Position numbers and translations under genes: made by a program | Shown here: piece after piece, positions 26,865 to 34,108 of the stretch | Layout: each line of letters begins with the position of its first letter | How positions within the stretch are numbered: position 1 is the stretch's first letter | Source: a virus | IMG/VR virus record: IMGVR_UViG_3300020215_000104 | Coordinates: 1 to 35,684 of that record | DNA: 35,684 nucleotides | Direction: 5' to 3' (one strand) | Notes under the pieces: generated by a model | The model's input: the letters and a program-made list of their open reading frames with translations, nothing else | Databases searched by the model: none | What the model was told of the DNA's origin: nothing

Positions 26865-27287
26865 ATGGCGAATCCCTCATTGAAAGCCGGCGCCCTGGCG
26901 AAGCCGCTGCCGCGGGCCTTGAAGAAGGCGCAGGACCGCCGCGAGGCCAACGCTGCACTCGATCAGGCGTATGCCGACGTCGACCTGAGGGATGGTCCCT
27001 ACAGCCGCATCTCCGGCCGCTACACGTCGTCAGGCGCCGTCGATCCGCGTGTGCGTCGGGAGCATCACCACATCCGGCCGCGCTCGACGCATCCGGAGTT
27101 GACGGCGGACCCGCGCAACATCTTCGTCTGCACGGCCGAGGAGCATCAGTTGATCCACGCGGGCGCGATTGAAGTGGAAGGCGTGAACGCGGCAAAGGAG
27201 CTGCGCTTCCACTGGAACCGGGCGATGGTGGCGCGAGGCAAGGAACCGTTTGAGATACGACAGCACAGGACGCGGAGGGATGGATAG
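26865..27287 (+). CDS. HNH-type nuclease-like protein
   Basis: The protein has 140 residues. After a basic N-terminus, residues about 43-100 resemble a phage HNH domain: 'GPYSRISGRYTSSGAVDPRV', then 'REHHHIRPRSTHPELTADPR', 'NIFVCTAEEHQLIHAG'. His67-69, Asn85, His94 and His98 correspond to metal-binding and catalytic positions. It lacks the CxxC zinc knuckles of many HNH enzymes. It could cut DNA during packaging or act as a homing nuclease. Confidence 0.72.
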   Translation: MANPSLKAGALAKPLPRALKKAQDRREANAALDQAYADVDLRDGPYSRISGRYTSSGAVDPRVRREHHHIRPRSTHPELTADPRNIFVCTAEEHQLIHAGAIEVEGVNAAKELRFHWNRAMVARGKEPFEIRQHRTRRDG

Positions 27288-27710
27288 ATGCAGTTGACGA
27301 TGACCAGCCCATGTCCCAAATGCCCGTTCCGAACAGACATCGCGCCATACCTGCGCGCGAGCCGGGCGGCTGAGATCGCTGATGGCCTGACGCGCCTCCA
27401 AGGCTCGTTCCAGTGTCACGCGACGGTGGACTACTCGGGTGACGAGCCACGCGAGGATACGCCTAATGCGCAGCACTGCGCCGGGGCGCTGATCGTGCTG
27501 GAGCGGATGAACCGCCCGAACCAGTTGATGCGCTGGATGGAGCGGATCGGCGCCTATGACCGTCGCGGGCTCCAGATGGATGCCCAGGTATTTGCGTCGA
27601 TGCGGGCGTTCATCGCAGCCCATGTTGCCAGCGGTCGGGCGCGTCCGGTTGCGCGGAAGGCAGACGCGAAGCCCTCGCCGCGCCGCAGATCCAAGAAGGG
27701 TGCGAAGTGA
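27288..27710 (+). CDS. DUF6283 family protein
   Basis: The protein has 140 residues. 'SPCPKCPFRTDIAPYLRASR' begins the DUF6283 signature, 'SFQCHATVDY' supplies Cys and His, 'AQHCAGALIVL' a further Cys, and 'QLMRWMERIGAYDRRGLQMD' closes it. The four Cys and His likely bind zinc. The C-terminus is a Lys/Arg-rich tail from 27660 that overlies the dispersed repeat copy. Function of the family is not established. The start could also be the ATG at 27300. Confidence 0.75.
   Translation: MQLTMTSPCPKCPFRTDIAPYLRASRAAEIADGLTRLQGSFQCHATVDYSGDEPREDTPNAQHCAGALIVLERMNRPNQLMRWMERIGAYDRRGLQMDAQVFASMRAFIAAHVASGRARPVARKADAKPSPRRRSKKGAK
27660..27699 (+). repeat. Dispersed repeat, copy 2 (gene 3' end)
   Basis: A 40-nt stretch (starting GCAGACGCGAAGCCCTCGCC) matches 21563-21601 at about 36 positions. 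Here it is read in frame as a basic tail 'ADAKPSPRRRSKKG', whereas in the copy at 21563 another frame is used (GREAVPAPQIQK). Confidence 0.75.
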
Positions 27711-27835
27711 AGCCGAGTTACGACGCGATCCAGAAGGGGGCGGTGTTGACGACGTGCCTGCGCTGTGGGCGGTCCTACTACATGACCCATCCCCAGCCCT
27801 ATTGTCAGACGTGCCGAGAGCAGGAGCAGAAGTGA
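27707..27835 (+). CDS. Small zinc-ribbon protein
   Basis: The protein has 42 residues from the GTG at 27707, overlapping the upstream stop. It is a single four-Cys zinc ribbon, 'TTCLRCGRSYYMTHPQPYCQ' plus 'TCREQEQK', with CxxC pairs 15 residues apart. Its stop overlaps the GTG of the methyltransferase gene. It might be a regulator or an accessory protein. No family was recognised. Confidence 0.6.
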   Translation: MKPSYDAIQKGAVLTTCLRCGRSYYMTHPQPYCQTCREQEQK

Positions 27836-29580
27836 CCTCAACCCTGTTGCACGGCGACAGCCGCGACGTGCTGGCGACCTTACCGGAGGCGTCCCTCGAC
27901 GCTTGCGTGACGGATCCGCCCTACGAGCTTGGCTTCATGGGGAAGGCGTGGGACCGCAGCGGTATCGCGTTCGATCCCGCGTTCTGGCGGCTGGTGTTCC
28001 GCGTAATGAAACCGGGCGCGCATCTGCTCGCCTGTGGCGGGACGCGCACCTATCACCGGATGGCGAGCGCCATCGAGGATGCGGGCTTTGAGATTCGCGA
28101 TTCACTGGCGTGGTTGTATTCGACTGGATTCCCTAAGAGCCTGAATGTCTCCGTCAACGATGCCTTCTGCCAATGCACACCGTCCGCGCAGACGGCCGAA
28201 CGTGTCCTGCGATCTGTGTGGCGCGGGCATGTATCGGCGTCCGTCGACGCTGGCGACGAACGCGGGGAAGTTCTGTTCACGGGCTTGCAGGAACCGAGCG
28301 CACCGACCGACGGGCCGCAGGGGTCCGAACCCCAGATTGCAGGGGCCGCGCAATCCGGCATGGAAGGGGGGTGTGACGGTGTTCCGCAAGCATGGGAACT
28401 ACAAGCCGATCACGTACGTGCGGTGCCCGCCGGAGTTTCTAGCGATGGCGCGTGCGGACGGGTATGTGATGGCACACCGGCTCATCATGGCGCGATTGGT
28501 AGGGCGCCCGCTGATGCGAGTCGAAGTGGTGCATCACGTCAACCACAACCCGCAGGACAACGCACCGGAGAACCTGGAACTGTGGCCGGACAACCGCTCG
28601 CACAAGCTGGCGGAGCATGGCCGGTTTGTTCTCGGTGTCGCAAACCTGTTGTGCCCGAAGGACTCGGCACGGCGCTGAAACCGGCGTATGAGCCGATTGT
28701 GCTGGCGCGCAAGCCGTTCAAGGGCAATGTGGCCGGGAACGTGGCGAAGTTCGGGACCGGGGCGCTGAACATCGACGCCTGCAGGGTCGCGAGCGGGGCC
28801 GACCACGCGGAGAAATGCGCGTCTGTAGTGGGCCTTGCATCGAATCGCAACGGGAACTGTTACGGCGAGTGGACGGGCGAACGCGAGGACTCCTACAGCC
28901 AGCTTGGCCGCTGGCCTGCGAATGTCTGCCTCGATGACCTCGCCGCGCTGGTGCTGGACGAACAGAGCGGGGACGTCGGCGGCGGCATCCCGAGTGGCGA
29001 GCGCAATGGGCCATCGTGGGACGGCGGCGGTGGGTGGGCAGCGTACAAGTCCCAAACGGGACACGAAGATTTCGGCGGCGCCTCCCGCTTCTTCTACGTC
29101 GCCAAGCCCTCCCGCGAAGAACGCGACTACGGCTGTGATGACCTGCAGGCGCGCACGGCGGGCGAAGCCACGCACCGGGACGACGGCACGGCTGGCTTGA
29201 ACAGCCCGCGCGCCGGCTCAGGCCGCACCGGAGGCGCCCGCAACATCCATCCAACCGTGAAGCCCGTCGAGTTGATGCGCTGGCTGGTGCGGCTGGTGAC
29301 GCCGCCCAACGGCACCGTGCTCGATCCGTTCATGGGCAGCGGCACGACCGGCATGGCCTGCAAGTACGAGCAGCGCGGATTCATCGGCATCGAGCGGGAG
29401 GCCGACTACCTCGAGATTGCCCGGCGACGGATTGCGGCGGTGGCGCCGCTGTTTGGAGCGCCGCAGTTAGCTCCGGCCGGCGACGCGGTAGCCCGCGCCG
29501 TCTCGGGTCAGGCAGAGCCGAACACGCGCGCATCTAAAAGCTCTTCGCTTTTTCCTGATGGCACTGGAGAAGCCGCATGA
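27832..29580 (+). CDS. Amino-DNA methyltransferase (N4-C/N6-A, beta-class order), interrupted by nested HNH frame
   Basis: The frame has 582 residues from the GTG at 27832. Motif IV (DPPY) is at 28-31 in 'VTDPPYELGFMGKAWD', and the AdoMet motif I (DPFMGSGTT) is at 498-506, an order typical of beta-class N6-adenine/N4-cytosine methyltransferases. Homologous-looking sequence runs to about residue 107 ('WLYSTGFPKSLNVS') and resumes at about 280 ('GTALKPAYEPIVLARKP'). The intervening roughly 170 residues are low-complexity and lie over an HNH endonuclease frame. Whether this insert is translated, bypassed or breaks the enzyme cannot be told from sequence alone. It likely protects phage DNA from restriction. 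Confidence 0.85.
   Translation: MTSTLLHGDSRDVLATLPEASLDACVTDPPYELGFMGKAWDRSGIAFDPAFWRLVFRVMKPGAHLLACGGTRTYHRMASAIEDAGFEIRDSLAWLYSTGFPKSLNVSVNDAFCQCTPSAQTAERVLRSVWRGHVSASVDAGDERGEVLFTGLQEPSAPTDGPQGSEPQIAGAAQSGMEGGCDGVPQAWELQADHVRAVPAGVSSDGACGRVCDGTPAHHGAIGRAPADASRSGASRQPQPAGQRTGEPGTVAGQPLAQAGGAWPVCSRCRKPVVPEGLGTALKPAYEPIVLARKPFKGNVAGNVAKFGTGALNIDACRVASGADHAEKCASVVGLASNRNGNCYGEWTGEREDSYSQLGRWPANVCLDDLAALVLDEQSGDVGGGIPSGERNGPSWDGGGGWAAYKSQTGHEDFGGASRFFYVAKPSREERDYGCDDLQARTAGEATHRDDGTAGLNSPRAGSGRTGGARNIHPTVKPVELMRWLVRLVTPPNGTVLDPFMGSGTTGMACKYEQRGFIGIEREADYLEIARRRIAAVAPLFGAPQLAPAGDAVARAVSGQAEPNTRASKSSSLFPDGTGEAA
28160..28678 (+). CDS. HNH endonuclease nested inside the methyltransferase gene
   Basis: The frame has 172 residues from the ATG at 28160 (or five more from 28145) and lies in the +1 frame of the methyltransferase. 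It has 'SCDLCGAGMYRRPSTLATNA' and 'KFCSRACRNRA' (four-Cys zinc finger), 'NPAWKGGV', 'DGYVMAHRLIMARLVGRPLM' and the HNH core 'VEVVHHVNHNPQDNAPENLE', then 'LWPDNRSHKLAEHG'. This is the standard layout of phage free-standing HNH homing endonucleases. It ends inside resumed methyltransferase sequence. No ribosome-binding site is obvious before the ATG. Confidence 0.85.
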   Translation: MPSANAHRPRRRPNVSCDLCGAGMYRRPSTLATNAGKFCSRACRNRAHRPTGRRGPNPRLQGPRNPAWKGGVTVFRKHGNYKPITYVRCPPEFLAMARADGYVMAHRLIMARLVGRPLMRVEVVHHVNHNPQDNAPENLELWPDNRSHKLAEHGRFVLGVANLLCPKDSARR

Positions 29581-32464: not shown

Positions 32465-33330
32465 GCCTCACGGTCGGGTCGCTGTTCGCTGGTATTGGCG
32501 GGTTTGATCTCGGGCTGGAACGAGCCGGGATGCAGGTCAAGTGGCAGGTTGAGATCAATCCGTTCTGCCGGCGGGTGCTCGAGAAACACTGGCCGGGTGT
32601 GAGGCGTTACGAAGATGTCCGAACGGTTGGAGCAGAGCTTGAGCGAGTCGACGTCATCTGCGGCGGATTCCCCTGTCAGGACATCAGCAGCGCCGGCGCC
32701 AAGGCTGGTCTCGATGGCGAGCAGTCCGGTCTTTGGTTCGAGATGTCTCGACTCATTCGCCTCTTACGACCCAGATACGTCGTTGTGGAGAACGTCGCAG
32801 ATCTCCTTTCTCGGGGGCTTGGCCGCGTTCTCGGAGATTTGGCCGCGAGCGGGTATGACGCGGAGTGGGACTGCATACAAGCTGCGGCCATTGGCGCCCC
32901 GCATGGCCGTGACCGTCTCTGGCTCGTCGCTTATCCCCACACCGACAAAGGGCGACGCGAAATCGGCGGCCAACGCGACAGCACGACGCTTCAGGGTGCC
33001 GCCCACGGGAGTACACGCCGGCACGACCTTGACCGACTACGTACGGATGTACCCAACGCCGATGGCGCGCACCAAGGGTGGGCGCGGCGGTGGACGGGGC
33101 AAGGGATCGATTTCGAGAGGTGGCGGGCTGATGCTCGACAACGTGCTGGGTGGCAAACCGAACCCGACATTCGTCGAGTGGCTGATGGGGTATCCCCTGG
33201 GATGGACAACGCTCGACTCGCCGCTCTCGGCAACGCCATCGTCCCATTCATCGCCGAGTGGATCGGATACCGGATCCTCGAAGCGGAAGCGGCAACAGTA
33301 ACGGACGCAGGAGATACCCATGCAGCGTGA
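32461..33330 (+). CDS. dcm: Cytosine-5 DNA methyltransferase
   Basis: The protein has 289 residues from the GTG at 32461. The canonical C5 motifs are present: I 'FAGIGG' at 9-14, IV 'GGFPCQDIS' with the catalytic Cys72, VI 'ENV' at 110-112, VIII 'QAAAIGAPHGRDRLW' at 140-154, and X 'RLAALGNAIVP' near 259. The target recognition region (about 160-240) is short, basic and Arg/Gly-rich. It methylates host- or self-specific sites, probably to evade restriction. A second protein-like frame covers most of the gene. There is no accompanying restriction enzyme. Confidence 0.92.
   Translation: MSLTVGSLFAGIGGFDLGLERAGMQVKWQVEINPFCRRVLEKHWPGVRRYEDVRTVGAELERVDVICGGFPCQDISSAGAKAGLDGEQSGLWFEMSRLIRLLRPRYVVVENVADLLSRGLGRVLGDLAASGYDAEWDCIQAAAIGAPHGRDRLWLVAYPHTDKGRREIGGQRDSTTLQGAAHGSTRRHDLDRLRTDVPNADGAHQGWARRWTGQGIDFERWRADARQRAGWQTEPDIRRVADGVSPGMDNARLAALGNAIVPFIAEWIGYRILEAEAATVTDAGDTHAA
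32615..33301 (+). CDS. Second protein-like frame overprinted on the cytosine methyltransferase gene
   Basis: The frame has 228 residues from the ATG at 32615, in a different frame of the same strand. It contains stretches such as 'YDPDTSLWRTSQISFLGG', 'EIWPRAGMTRSGTAYKLRPL', 'SLIPTPTKGDAKSA' and 'NPTFVEWLMGYPLGWTTLD'. These are features I recall from a widespread phage protein family found together with such methyltransferases. That memory is unverified. It lies over motifs IV to X. No strong ribosome-binding site was seen. Translation is uncertain; it may be real overprinting or a preserved artefact of the methyltransferase code. Confidence 0.5.
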   Translation: MSERLEQSLSESTSSAADSPVRTSAAPAPRLVSMASSPVFGSRCLDSFASYDPDTSLWRTSQISFLGGLAAFSEIWPRAGMTRSGTAYKLRPLAPRMAVTVSGSSLIPTPTKGDAKSAANATARRFRVPPTGVHAGTTLTDYVRMYPTPMARTKGGRGGGRGKGSISRGGGLMLDNVLGGKPNPTFVEWLMGYPLGWTTLDSPLSATPSSHSSPSGSDTGSSKRKRQQ

Positions 33331-34108
33331 CGCGGTAGTTCCAGGTGGTGAGTTGGCGAAGCACGGCCTGTCCACGCGCGACGAAAAGCACTTCTCCCCC
33401 GCGTCCGGTGGAGGCGAAGCCCTCCCCGCGCCGGAACCGTTGATCGAGCAGTTGCTGGCACTCGCCAACACCCTCGGTAACGGCGACGAGGACATCGTGC
33501 GTGAGGCCGCGCGAGTGCTGTCAGCCTCCGGTGCGCCGCAGACCGCGCAGGAGCCGGACGAGGACGAGCGCGACCACATGCAGCGTTCCCCCGCCGATAC
33601 GACCGGCTATCGCCAGAAGGCGCAGACCGCGCAGGACGAGCTTGCCGACCTGCTGCCCGATTTGCTTGAGGCAGGCGTTTGCGAGATTCCTCAACCGCTT
33701 CGACGACGGACATACCTGCTGTGGCAACAACTACGGGCTTACGGTGTGCCGCAGACCGCGCGGGAGTGGGGGCTTGACGCCGAGAAGCTGAAAGCCTTGG
33801 CCAAAGAGCACGACGCACGGCCTGCCGAGGCGCAGACCGCGCAGGAGCAGGCACCAGAGCAACCGGAGTTGAAACCGTGCCCGTTCTGTGGCGCGGAGGC
33901 CGAAATCGTCGCCGTCGAGGAACCAAGCAACGTCGGGGGATACGTCGTCAGTTGCAAGGGGTGCGAAGCATCGACGCGCGTCTGGTTCCCGATCAAAGAC
34001 CGTGTGGATGGAATCTTGCGGGATGCGTGGAACCGGCGGCAGCCCTCCCCACCCTCCGCCCCTCTCGCGGAGCAGGGACAGAGAGAACAAGAGCAGGAGA
34101 AAAGCTAA
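33320..34108 (+). CDS. Lar-like restriction-alleviation protein with repeat-rich N-terminal region
   Basis: The protein has 262 residues; AGGAGATACCC precedes the ATG. The Lar-like zinc domain is near residue 185-240: 'LKPCPFCGAEAEIVAVEEPS', 'VVSCKGCEASTRVWF' and 'ILRDAWNRRQ', with CxxC...CxxC and the closing W-N-R-R typical of the family. Lar-type proteins alleviate host type I restriction. The N-terminal 180 residues carry four in-frame copies of QTAQ/QTAR and read as a variable linker. Its start lies 11 nt inside the methyltransferase gene, supporting a shared anti-restriction role. Confidence 0.7.
   Translation: MQRDAVVPGGELAKHGLSTRDEKHFSPASGGGEALPAPEPLIEQLLALANTLGNGDEDIVREAARVLSASGAPQTAQEPDEDERDHMQRSPADTTGYRQKAQTAQDELADLLPDLLEAGVCEIPQPLRRRTYLLWQQLRAYGVPQTAREWGLDAEKLKALAKEHDARPAEAQTAQEQAPEQPELKPCPFCGAEAEIVAVEEPSNVGGYVVSCKGCEASTRVWFPIKDRVDGILRDAWNRRQPSPPSAPLAEQGQREQEQEKS
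33538..33846 (+). repeat. Four in-frame GCAGACCGCGCAGGA repeats
   Basis: Copies occur at 33538-33552, 33622-33636, 33751-33765 (one mismatch) and 33832-33846, encoding QTAQE, QTAQD, QTARE and QTAQE. Spacings are 84, 129 and 81 nt, all multiples of three. They divide the linker part of the Lar-like protein. Confidence 0.75.

Follow-up and report, generated by a model that had tools for sequence, protein, structure and literature searches.

A putative HNH homing endonuclease gene nested in the +1 frame of a phage DNA methyltransferase gene

The closest described relative of the locus reported here is the ShiLan domain, an HNH concealed out of frame in the methylases of mycobacteriophages (PMC11855218, 2025), whose insert had earlier been reported simply as an insertion (PMC9957025, 2023). 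According to the available parts of the former paper, the ShiLan insert has no host-frame stops, carries its HNH in the third frame and is neither an intron nor an intein; homing is regarded as probable, a hairpin-like loop is predicted and no ribosome-binding site was found. The available parts of PMC9957025 describe the same methylase gene also with a LAGLIDADG intein, and those of PMC12613952 describe Applejack in terms like those of the StellaBean-type nested HNH. An out-of-frame HNH in a phage methylase is thus a known kind of arrangement (PMC11855218), from which the present locus differs in frame, insertion site, nuclease branch and a proposed cysteine clamp. The arrangement is also recurrent; an initial annotation of this DNA contained neither the recurrence nor the published sister case.

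The methyltransferase gene and its nested frame

The window, that is, the whole stretch of DNA analysed, is the entire IMG/VR virus record IMGVR_UViG_3300020215_000104 (35,684 bases). An open frame runs uninterrupted from 27556 to 29580 on the + strand, reaching back to an ATG at 27556, and holds a second ORF (28145..28678) in another frame. The methyltransferase likely starts at GTG 27832, a choice that rests on an AGGAG just upstream. The features are as follows.

27832..29580, + strand: beta-class N6/N4 DNA methyltransferase, read through the insert; 582 aa, GTG start, stop at 29578-29580
27832..28146, + strand: methyltransferase N-terminal block, DPPY motif to GFPKSLN; pLDDT mostly >85
28145..28678, + strand: nested HNH_3 nuclease ORF in the +1 frame, 177 aa; complete ORF (Pfam, PHROGs)
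28147..28659, + strand: insert in the methyltransferase frame, 171 codons (~513 nt); bounds approximate, from comparison with the HNH-free homologue L012
28168..28176, + strand: methyltransferase-frame CxC pair (C113, C115), proposed as the upstream half of a metal clamp
28469..28591, + strand: HNH_3 core (HH...N...H) of the nested ORF (Pfam, aa 109-149)
28627..28638, + strand: methyltransferase-frame CxxC pair (C266, C269), proposed as the downstream half of a metal clamp
28660..29577, + strand: methyltransferase C-terminal block, GLGTALKP ... FMGSGTT

The initial annotation had described a complete HNH frame within a methyltransferase gene whose own frame stays open, and both the ORF list and Pfam bear this out. 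The host frame matches N6_N4_Mtase (PF01555) in two stretches (1.2e-29; 104.2 bits against a cut-off of 26.7), and the nested frame matches HNH_3 (PF13392; 7e-8; 32.4 bits against a curated cut-off of 24.8). PHROGs concur, with phrog_67 for the outer protein and phrog_20891 for the inner one. Both methyltransferase motifs are present, DPPY preceding motif I in the beta-class order. The two conserved-looking blocks noticed earlier are halves of a single methyltransferase domain: the best fold match of the protein in Foldseek, CcrM (6pbd), aligns over 554 columns (E 5.3e-12).

Comparison with insert-less methyltransferases, a check proposed at the outset, mapped the insert to about 28147-28659, between FPKSLN and GLGTALKP. 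It had been reasoned that the nesting would be a coincidence if most homologues had a middle region of the same length and no HNH. This is not what was found: homologues exist in both HNH-free and HNH-filled form, the insert is missing from the former, and the linker of the L012 type reads SGFPKSLNLGEGLGTALKP, with no room for a nuclease. The nuclease ATG at 28145 lies on the insert boundary, with a second in-frame ATG at 28160, where the initial annotation had placed the start, and its TGA stop (28676-28678) spans the conserved L-K codons of the host's LKP. The nuclease stop falls at these LKP codons in 11 of 33 listed +1 elements.

GC content by codon position is 0.61/0.52/0.80 in the N block and 0.68/0.56/0.80 in the C block. 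Within the insert it is 0.78/0.65/0.51 in the host frame and 0.65/0.51/0.79 in the HNH frame, a phase shift indicating that the insert is built as a nuclease gene, the host-frame reading being secondary.

Elsewhere in the window, a further weak HNH match (phrog_144, 2e-4) comes from 26865-27287, two genes before the methyltransferase. The stretch 32615-34108 suggests an anti-restriction region, as it holds another DNA methyltransferase ORF (phrog_1008) and, after it, a Lar-like restriction alleviation ORF (phrog_599).

Recurrence across viruses and constraint on the two frames

Searching IMG/VR with only the nuclease protein as query returned 34 loci with 30 different cores. The host frame, one base ahead of the nuclease, had no stop across the match in any of the 34, and the third frame had 4 to 17. 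The same ORF matched both methyltransferase blocks at 31 loci; L119 matched the N block only, and L089 and L118 the C block only. In a wider clade of 83 non-identical cores (HMM score >=160), assembled from the 80 best of 237 relatives in a profile-based IMG/VR scan, 12 loci from a set with a single genome for each species, phage records and the earlier loci, 78 elements lie inside a methyltransferase ORF, and all 78 are at +1. Few relatives were found on plasmids (6 records). The five non-nested members comprise L172 and L180, where the methyltransferase blocks form separate ORFs flanking the nuclease, L196, where the nuclease is antisense between the blocks, L204, which looks degenerate, and L160. 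The H-N-H and zinc Cys columns are conserved in 79-83 of the 83 nucleases, and one four-Cys finger precedes the HNH core.

By strict patterns, both methyltransferase motifs are present in 57 of the 78 nested hosts; among the 21 misses, five hosts are cut by the 3' contig end and one by the 5' end, and some nested hosts may be defective or split again. Four nested hosts (L098, L116, L188 and L189) share a similar tail (about EQKKELFKWLYENA) and lack motif I, and in L098 and L116 a separate ORF further downstream gives a C-terminal methyltransferase match.

Host-frame stops were compared with those expected from a synonymous-codon shuffle within each nuclease, which leaves its protein and codon usage unchanged. 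For the window gene alone, 0 stops were observed against 4.22 expected (2000 shuffles, P=0.005); together with the 34 host-open loci, this speaks against the nested frame being a coincidence. Across the 78 nested elements there were 0 stops against about 489 expected (286.3 in the direct group, 193.0 in the intein group and 10.0 in others, with 0 in each), a zero that is partly by construction because 'nested' is defined by an open enclosing ORF; the 34/34 host-open loci and the 78/83 nested clade members are counts free of that definition. The third frame of the same elements had 688 stops against about 628 expected, and in the direct group slightly more than in the shuffles (413 against 345-398). 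In the five non-nested relatives, 83 host-frame stops were found against 83.4 expected. Taken singly, 75 of the 78 elements had P<=0.05.

The depletion is visible at the level of codon pairs, since a T-ending codon before one that begins with AA, AG or GA creates a host-frame stop. In nested elements T-ending codons occur in 0 of 2425 such positions and in 1904 of 6212 positions before other codons; the corresponding figures in non-nested relatives are 83/175 and 153/367. The reverse shuffle, of host codons, gave 0 HNH-frame stops against 210.7 expected, with 51 of 78 elements at P<=0.05 singly. Of the three positions of the HNH codons the third varies most (identity 0.477, against 0.694 and 0.752 for the other two; 316 direct pairs), indicating that the nuclease sequence is the dominant constraint. 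Given the depletion of stops in nested elements and its absence from non-nested relatives, both frames look selected.

We also considered relatives of the ShiLan nuclease (21 of 27 loci examined, the remaining six being short weak matches). Four lie in methyltransferases and have zero stops at +2; of the 17 outside methyltransferases, 16 have stops in both other frames and L222 is open in one. Single high-GC ShiLan-type elements did not reach significance by shuffle (Mantra, P=0.43; L014, P=0.22).

The host-frame loop, its cysteine pairs and the intein-nested form

Host-frame columns of non-intein elements were tested against stop-free shuffles (z>3). Nine of 152 stood out, against five in the third frame, and six of the nine are the neighbouring W, P, C, C, G and K at the downstream end (z up to 28); across the same 152 columns the loop interior gave little per-column signal beyond the clamp. 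The intein group had three outstanding host-frame columns, none at the downstream clamp end. A CxC or CxxC stands upstream of the nuclease core and a CxxC downstream of it; of 50 non-intein elements, 38 have both halves, 6 a single half and 6 neither. Neither half was present in any of 62 distinct HNH-free linkers (up to 100 residues). The CxC...CxxC pair is probably a metal-binding clamp that closes the base of the loop. Some methyltransferases with no window-type HNH (L005, L008 and L011) have in this linker a longer in-frame insert, which by eye resembles a helix-turn-helix.

In the AlphaFold model the methyltransferase core is mostly above 85 in pLDDT and the two cysteine regions are at 58 and 69 by block, while residues 118-261 fall to about 31-41 and are predicted to be disordered. 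The structure alignment covered 36 of 47 listed non-intein hosts, mostly clamp carriers. It is conceivable, though unlikely, that the host-frame loop has a conserved function of its own, for example in DNA recognition, the overlap then being a two-product innovation; this would be compatible with the explanation that we favour below. Host-frame similarity in non-intein elements does exceed that of shuffles by 0.16-0.35 per site, compared with 0.04-0.21 in the third frame, but the few columns that stand out are concentrated at the clamp end, and the predicted disorder also argues against such a role.

In 28 of the 78 nested clade members the methyltransferase gene contains an intein, and the nuclease is encoded within that intein, out of frame. 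The intein site (about WxYG|SGFPKS) is about 10 codons from the window's insert, and the junction TGN|S-GFP is present in 27 of the 28; L202, whose C-terminal part is missing, was counted as an intein by hand. The intein start was found by pattern in 22 of 28, that of L192 being doubtful and apparently false. A profile of the N-part of 19 inteins matches solved inteins (AceL NrdHF intein, 9.3e-7), and Pfam on five intein hosts gave a sub-threshold Hint_2 in one only. Reading of the window sequence revealed no intein blocks and no TGN|S junction, nor did Pfam or NCBIfam report an intein there. Beside the intein-nested +1 HNH, a second, ShiLan-like HNH at +2 was seen within the host gene itself at three loci (L099:3875-4102, L175:3833-4030 and L192:4049-4231).

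Starred branches of the nuclease tree force at least two changes between intein and direct settings; L088, which is direct and has no clamp, is sister to the intein-borne L099 (support 99/92). We regard it as an even question whether the clade writes a gene that is readable in the host frame from end to end, with clamp cysteines at most non-intein sites, and alternates this with overprinting of inteins. If it does, we propose that some inteins have a homing endonuclease encoded out of frame. The intein form may already have been described in a preprint on non-canonical inteins of actinobacteriophages (doi 10.1101/2025.01.02.630785).

Proposed mechanism, alternatives and comparison with known systems

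We consider it likely that the locus is a mobile HNH homing gene in the methyltransferase linker, in +1, with a stop-free host frame, two protein products and putative homing. In a phage DNA methyltransferase gene, the variable linker would receive an HNH homing-endonuclease gene in the +1 frame; the host frame would stay free of stops, and the full methyltransferase would be made with an extra, mostly disordered loop of ~170 residues, its base probably closed by the CxC...CxxC metal-binding pair. The HNH nuclease would be made separately from an internal start. Its targets would be methyltransferase genes without the insert, cleaved close to the GFPKS/GTALKP codons, and repair would then copy the insert into the cut gene. 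Cleavage, homing, metal binding, methyltransferase activity and the mode of nuclease translation are parts of this mechanism that we infer.

What is directly supported is that two frames are open and the host frame avoids stops, that the nuclease residues and, in the host frame, the downstream CxxC are conserved, and that clade members occupy more than one kind of host context: loop, intein and, in a few members, a split, antisense or degenerate arrangement. The avoidance of host-frame stops across the clade and the retention of the HNH residues favour one option of the initial annotation, that a single stretch encodes two proteins; that both are made is a prediction and the best reading. The insert is best read as a homing endonuclease gene that the enzyme accommodates, with no splicing involved, in the form of a disordered loop.

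Among solved structures, the HNH model matches the homing endonuclease I-HmuI best (Z 5.8, rmsd 3.8, 75 aligned), a Z within the range of common arrangements. Foldseek with the same model gave no match at E<=0.001, and no solved sequence relative of the nuclease was found at E<=0.01. An internal ribosome-binding site was considered and rejected: the best Shine-Dalgarno match among candidate nuclease starts reaches at least 5 bases in 14 of 83 elements, against about 25% for random positions, and without such enrichment the translation of the nuclease is not explained.

The initial annotation had also allowed that the enzyme is broken, the nuclease having inactivated the methyltransferase and the host frame being open through high GC only. 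The GC of the window nuclease ORF (0.65) and the 21 hosts that lack the strict motif would fit such a reading. We nevertheless judge it improbable, because ten nested elements of only 34-41% GC have 0 stops each where 7.0-12.5 are expected, stops are as frequent as expected in the five non-nested relatives, and the window methyltransferase keeps both motifs. In addition, at L238:2110-3300 the methyltransferase ORF is still open although the nuclease ORF, of the different, StellaBean type, is truncated.

Some restriction enzymes are small HNH proteins, and the coupling of nuclease and methyltransferase in 78 of 83 members could be taken for a nested restriction-modification pair, in which the HNH protein cuts and the methyltransferase protects its sites. 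This we hold to be similarly improbable. Some members of the host family lack the nuclease, as the 62 distinct HNH-free linkers attest; others have an HNH of unrelated type in that linker (StellaBean, PF01844), a ShiLan-type HNH at another position or, according to the available parts of PMC9957025 and the ShiLan sequence, a LAGLIDADG-type intein; the nuclease clade itself shifts between intein and non-intein settings.

Splicing, the remaining option of the initial annotation, is very improbable: HNH homing endonucleases are often intron-borne (PMC11855218, available parts), but the check for a group I or II fold returned no Rfam intron family at E<=1 over 27832-29580, the insert of ~513 nt is nearly all nuclease ORF, and a self-splicing intron would not demand the avoidance of host-frame stops seen throughout, the openness then being accidental. 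The sole Rfam match was a weak snoRNA at 29431-29528, which lies outside the insert and is not an intron.

A dual-coding homing gene, the reading preferred here, bears on how such elements are accommodated. Mobile nucleases inserted in genes usually spare the host by means of an intron or intein; this clade points to read-through as a third way, and the same nuclease clade switches between read-through and intein packaging. It is also a warning that homing endonucleases are missed when annotation covers the host frame only, and it offers a clean system for testing the translation of internal out-of-frame phage genes. The available parts of PMC11855218, PMC9957025, PMC12613952 and PMC2988022 contain no selection test of this kind, no clamp and no intein-nested form.

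The published methylase intein has a LAGLIDADG endonuclease domain (PMC9957025, available parts), whereas the inteins of this clade carry an HNH out of frame. According to the available parts of PMC2988022, mobE in nrdA of phage Aeh1 is, like the window element, an HNH homing gene in a phage coding region with host function kept. However, mobE splits nrdA into two polypeptides; the window host is one ORF, and in the clade only L172 and L180 look split in this way.

The methylases of StellaBean, Molly and SG4 resemble the window in having the same linker, the same CxC...CxxC ends and a nested HNH at +1, but the StellaBean nuclease is unrelated, being a PF01844 HNH rather than HNH_3. The nested HNH is annotated in StellaBean and Molly and not in SG4. 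A comparison of StellaBean with ShereKhan did not reveal a clean insertion, the linker being replaced (184 nt against 694 nt) and not just interrupted.

The window and ShiLan share the host gene family, an out-of-frame HNH_3, an open host frame and proposed homing, and neither has an intron or intein signal. They differ in frame, ShiLan and Mantra being at +2 and the window, with all 78 nested clade members, at +1. They differ also in site: ShiLan lies downstream of GTALKP, next to EPIVVARKP, and ends just before AFEPIVVARKPL, whereas the window insert lies between FPKSLN and GLGTALKP, away from EPIVVARKP. The window, unlike ShiLan, has the CxC...CxxC pair at the insert ends, and its nuclease, with 34.3% identity across 72% of the query, belongs to another branch. 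Of the other marks of the ShiLan domain, a central HNH between flanking zinc fingers and a disjunct distribution among related methylases, the window clade shows one four-Cys finger before the HNH core, and its host family includes HNH-free as well as filled homologues. Judged by these sequence comparisons, the window element is probably a dual-coding sister family to the ShiLan domain and probably a homing endonuclease gene.
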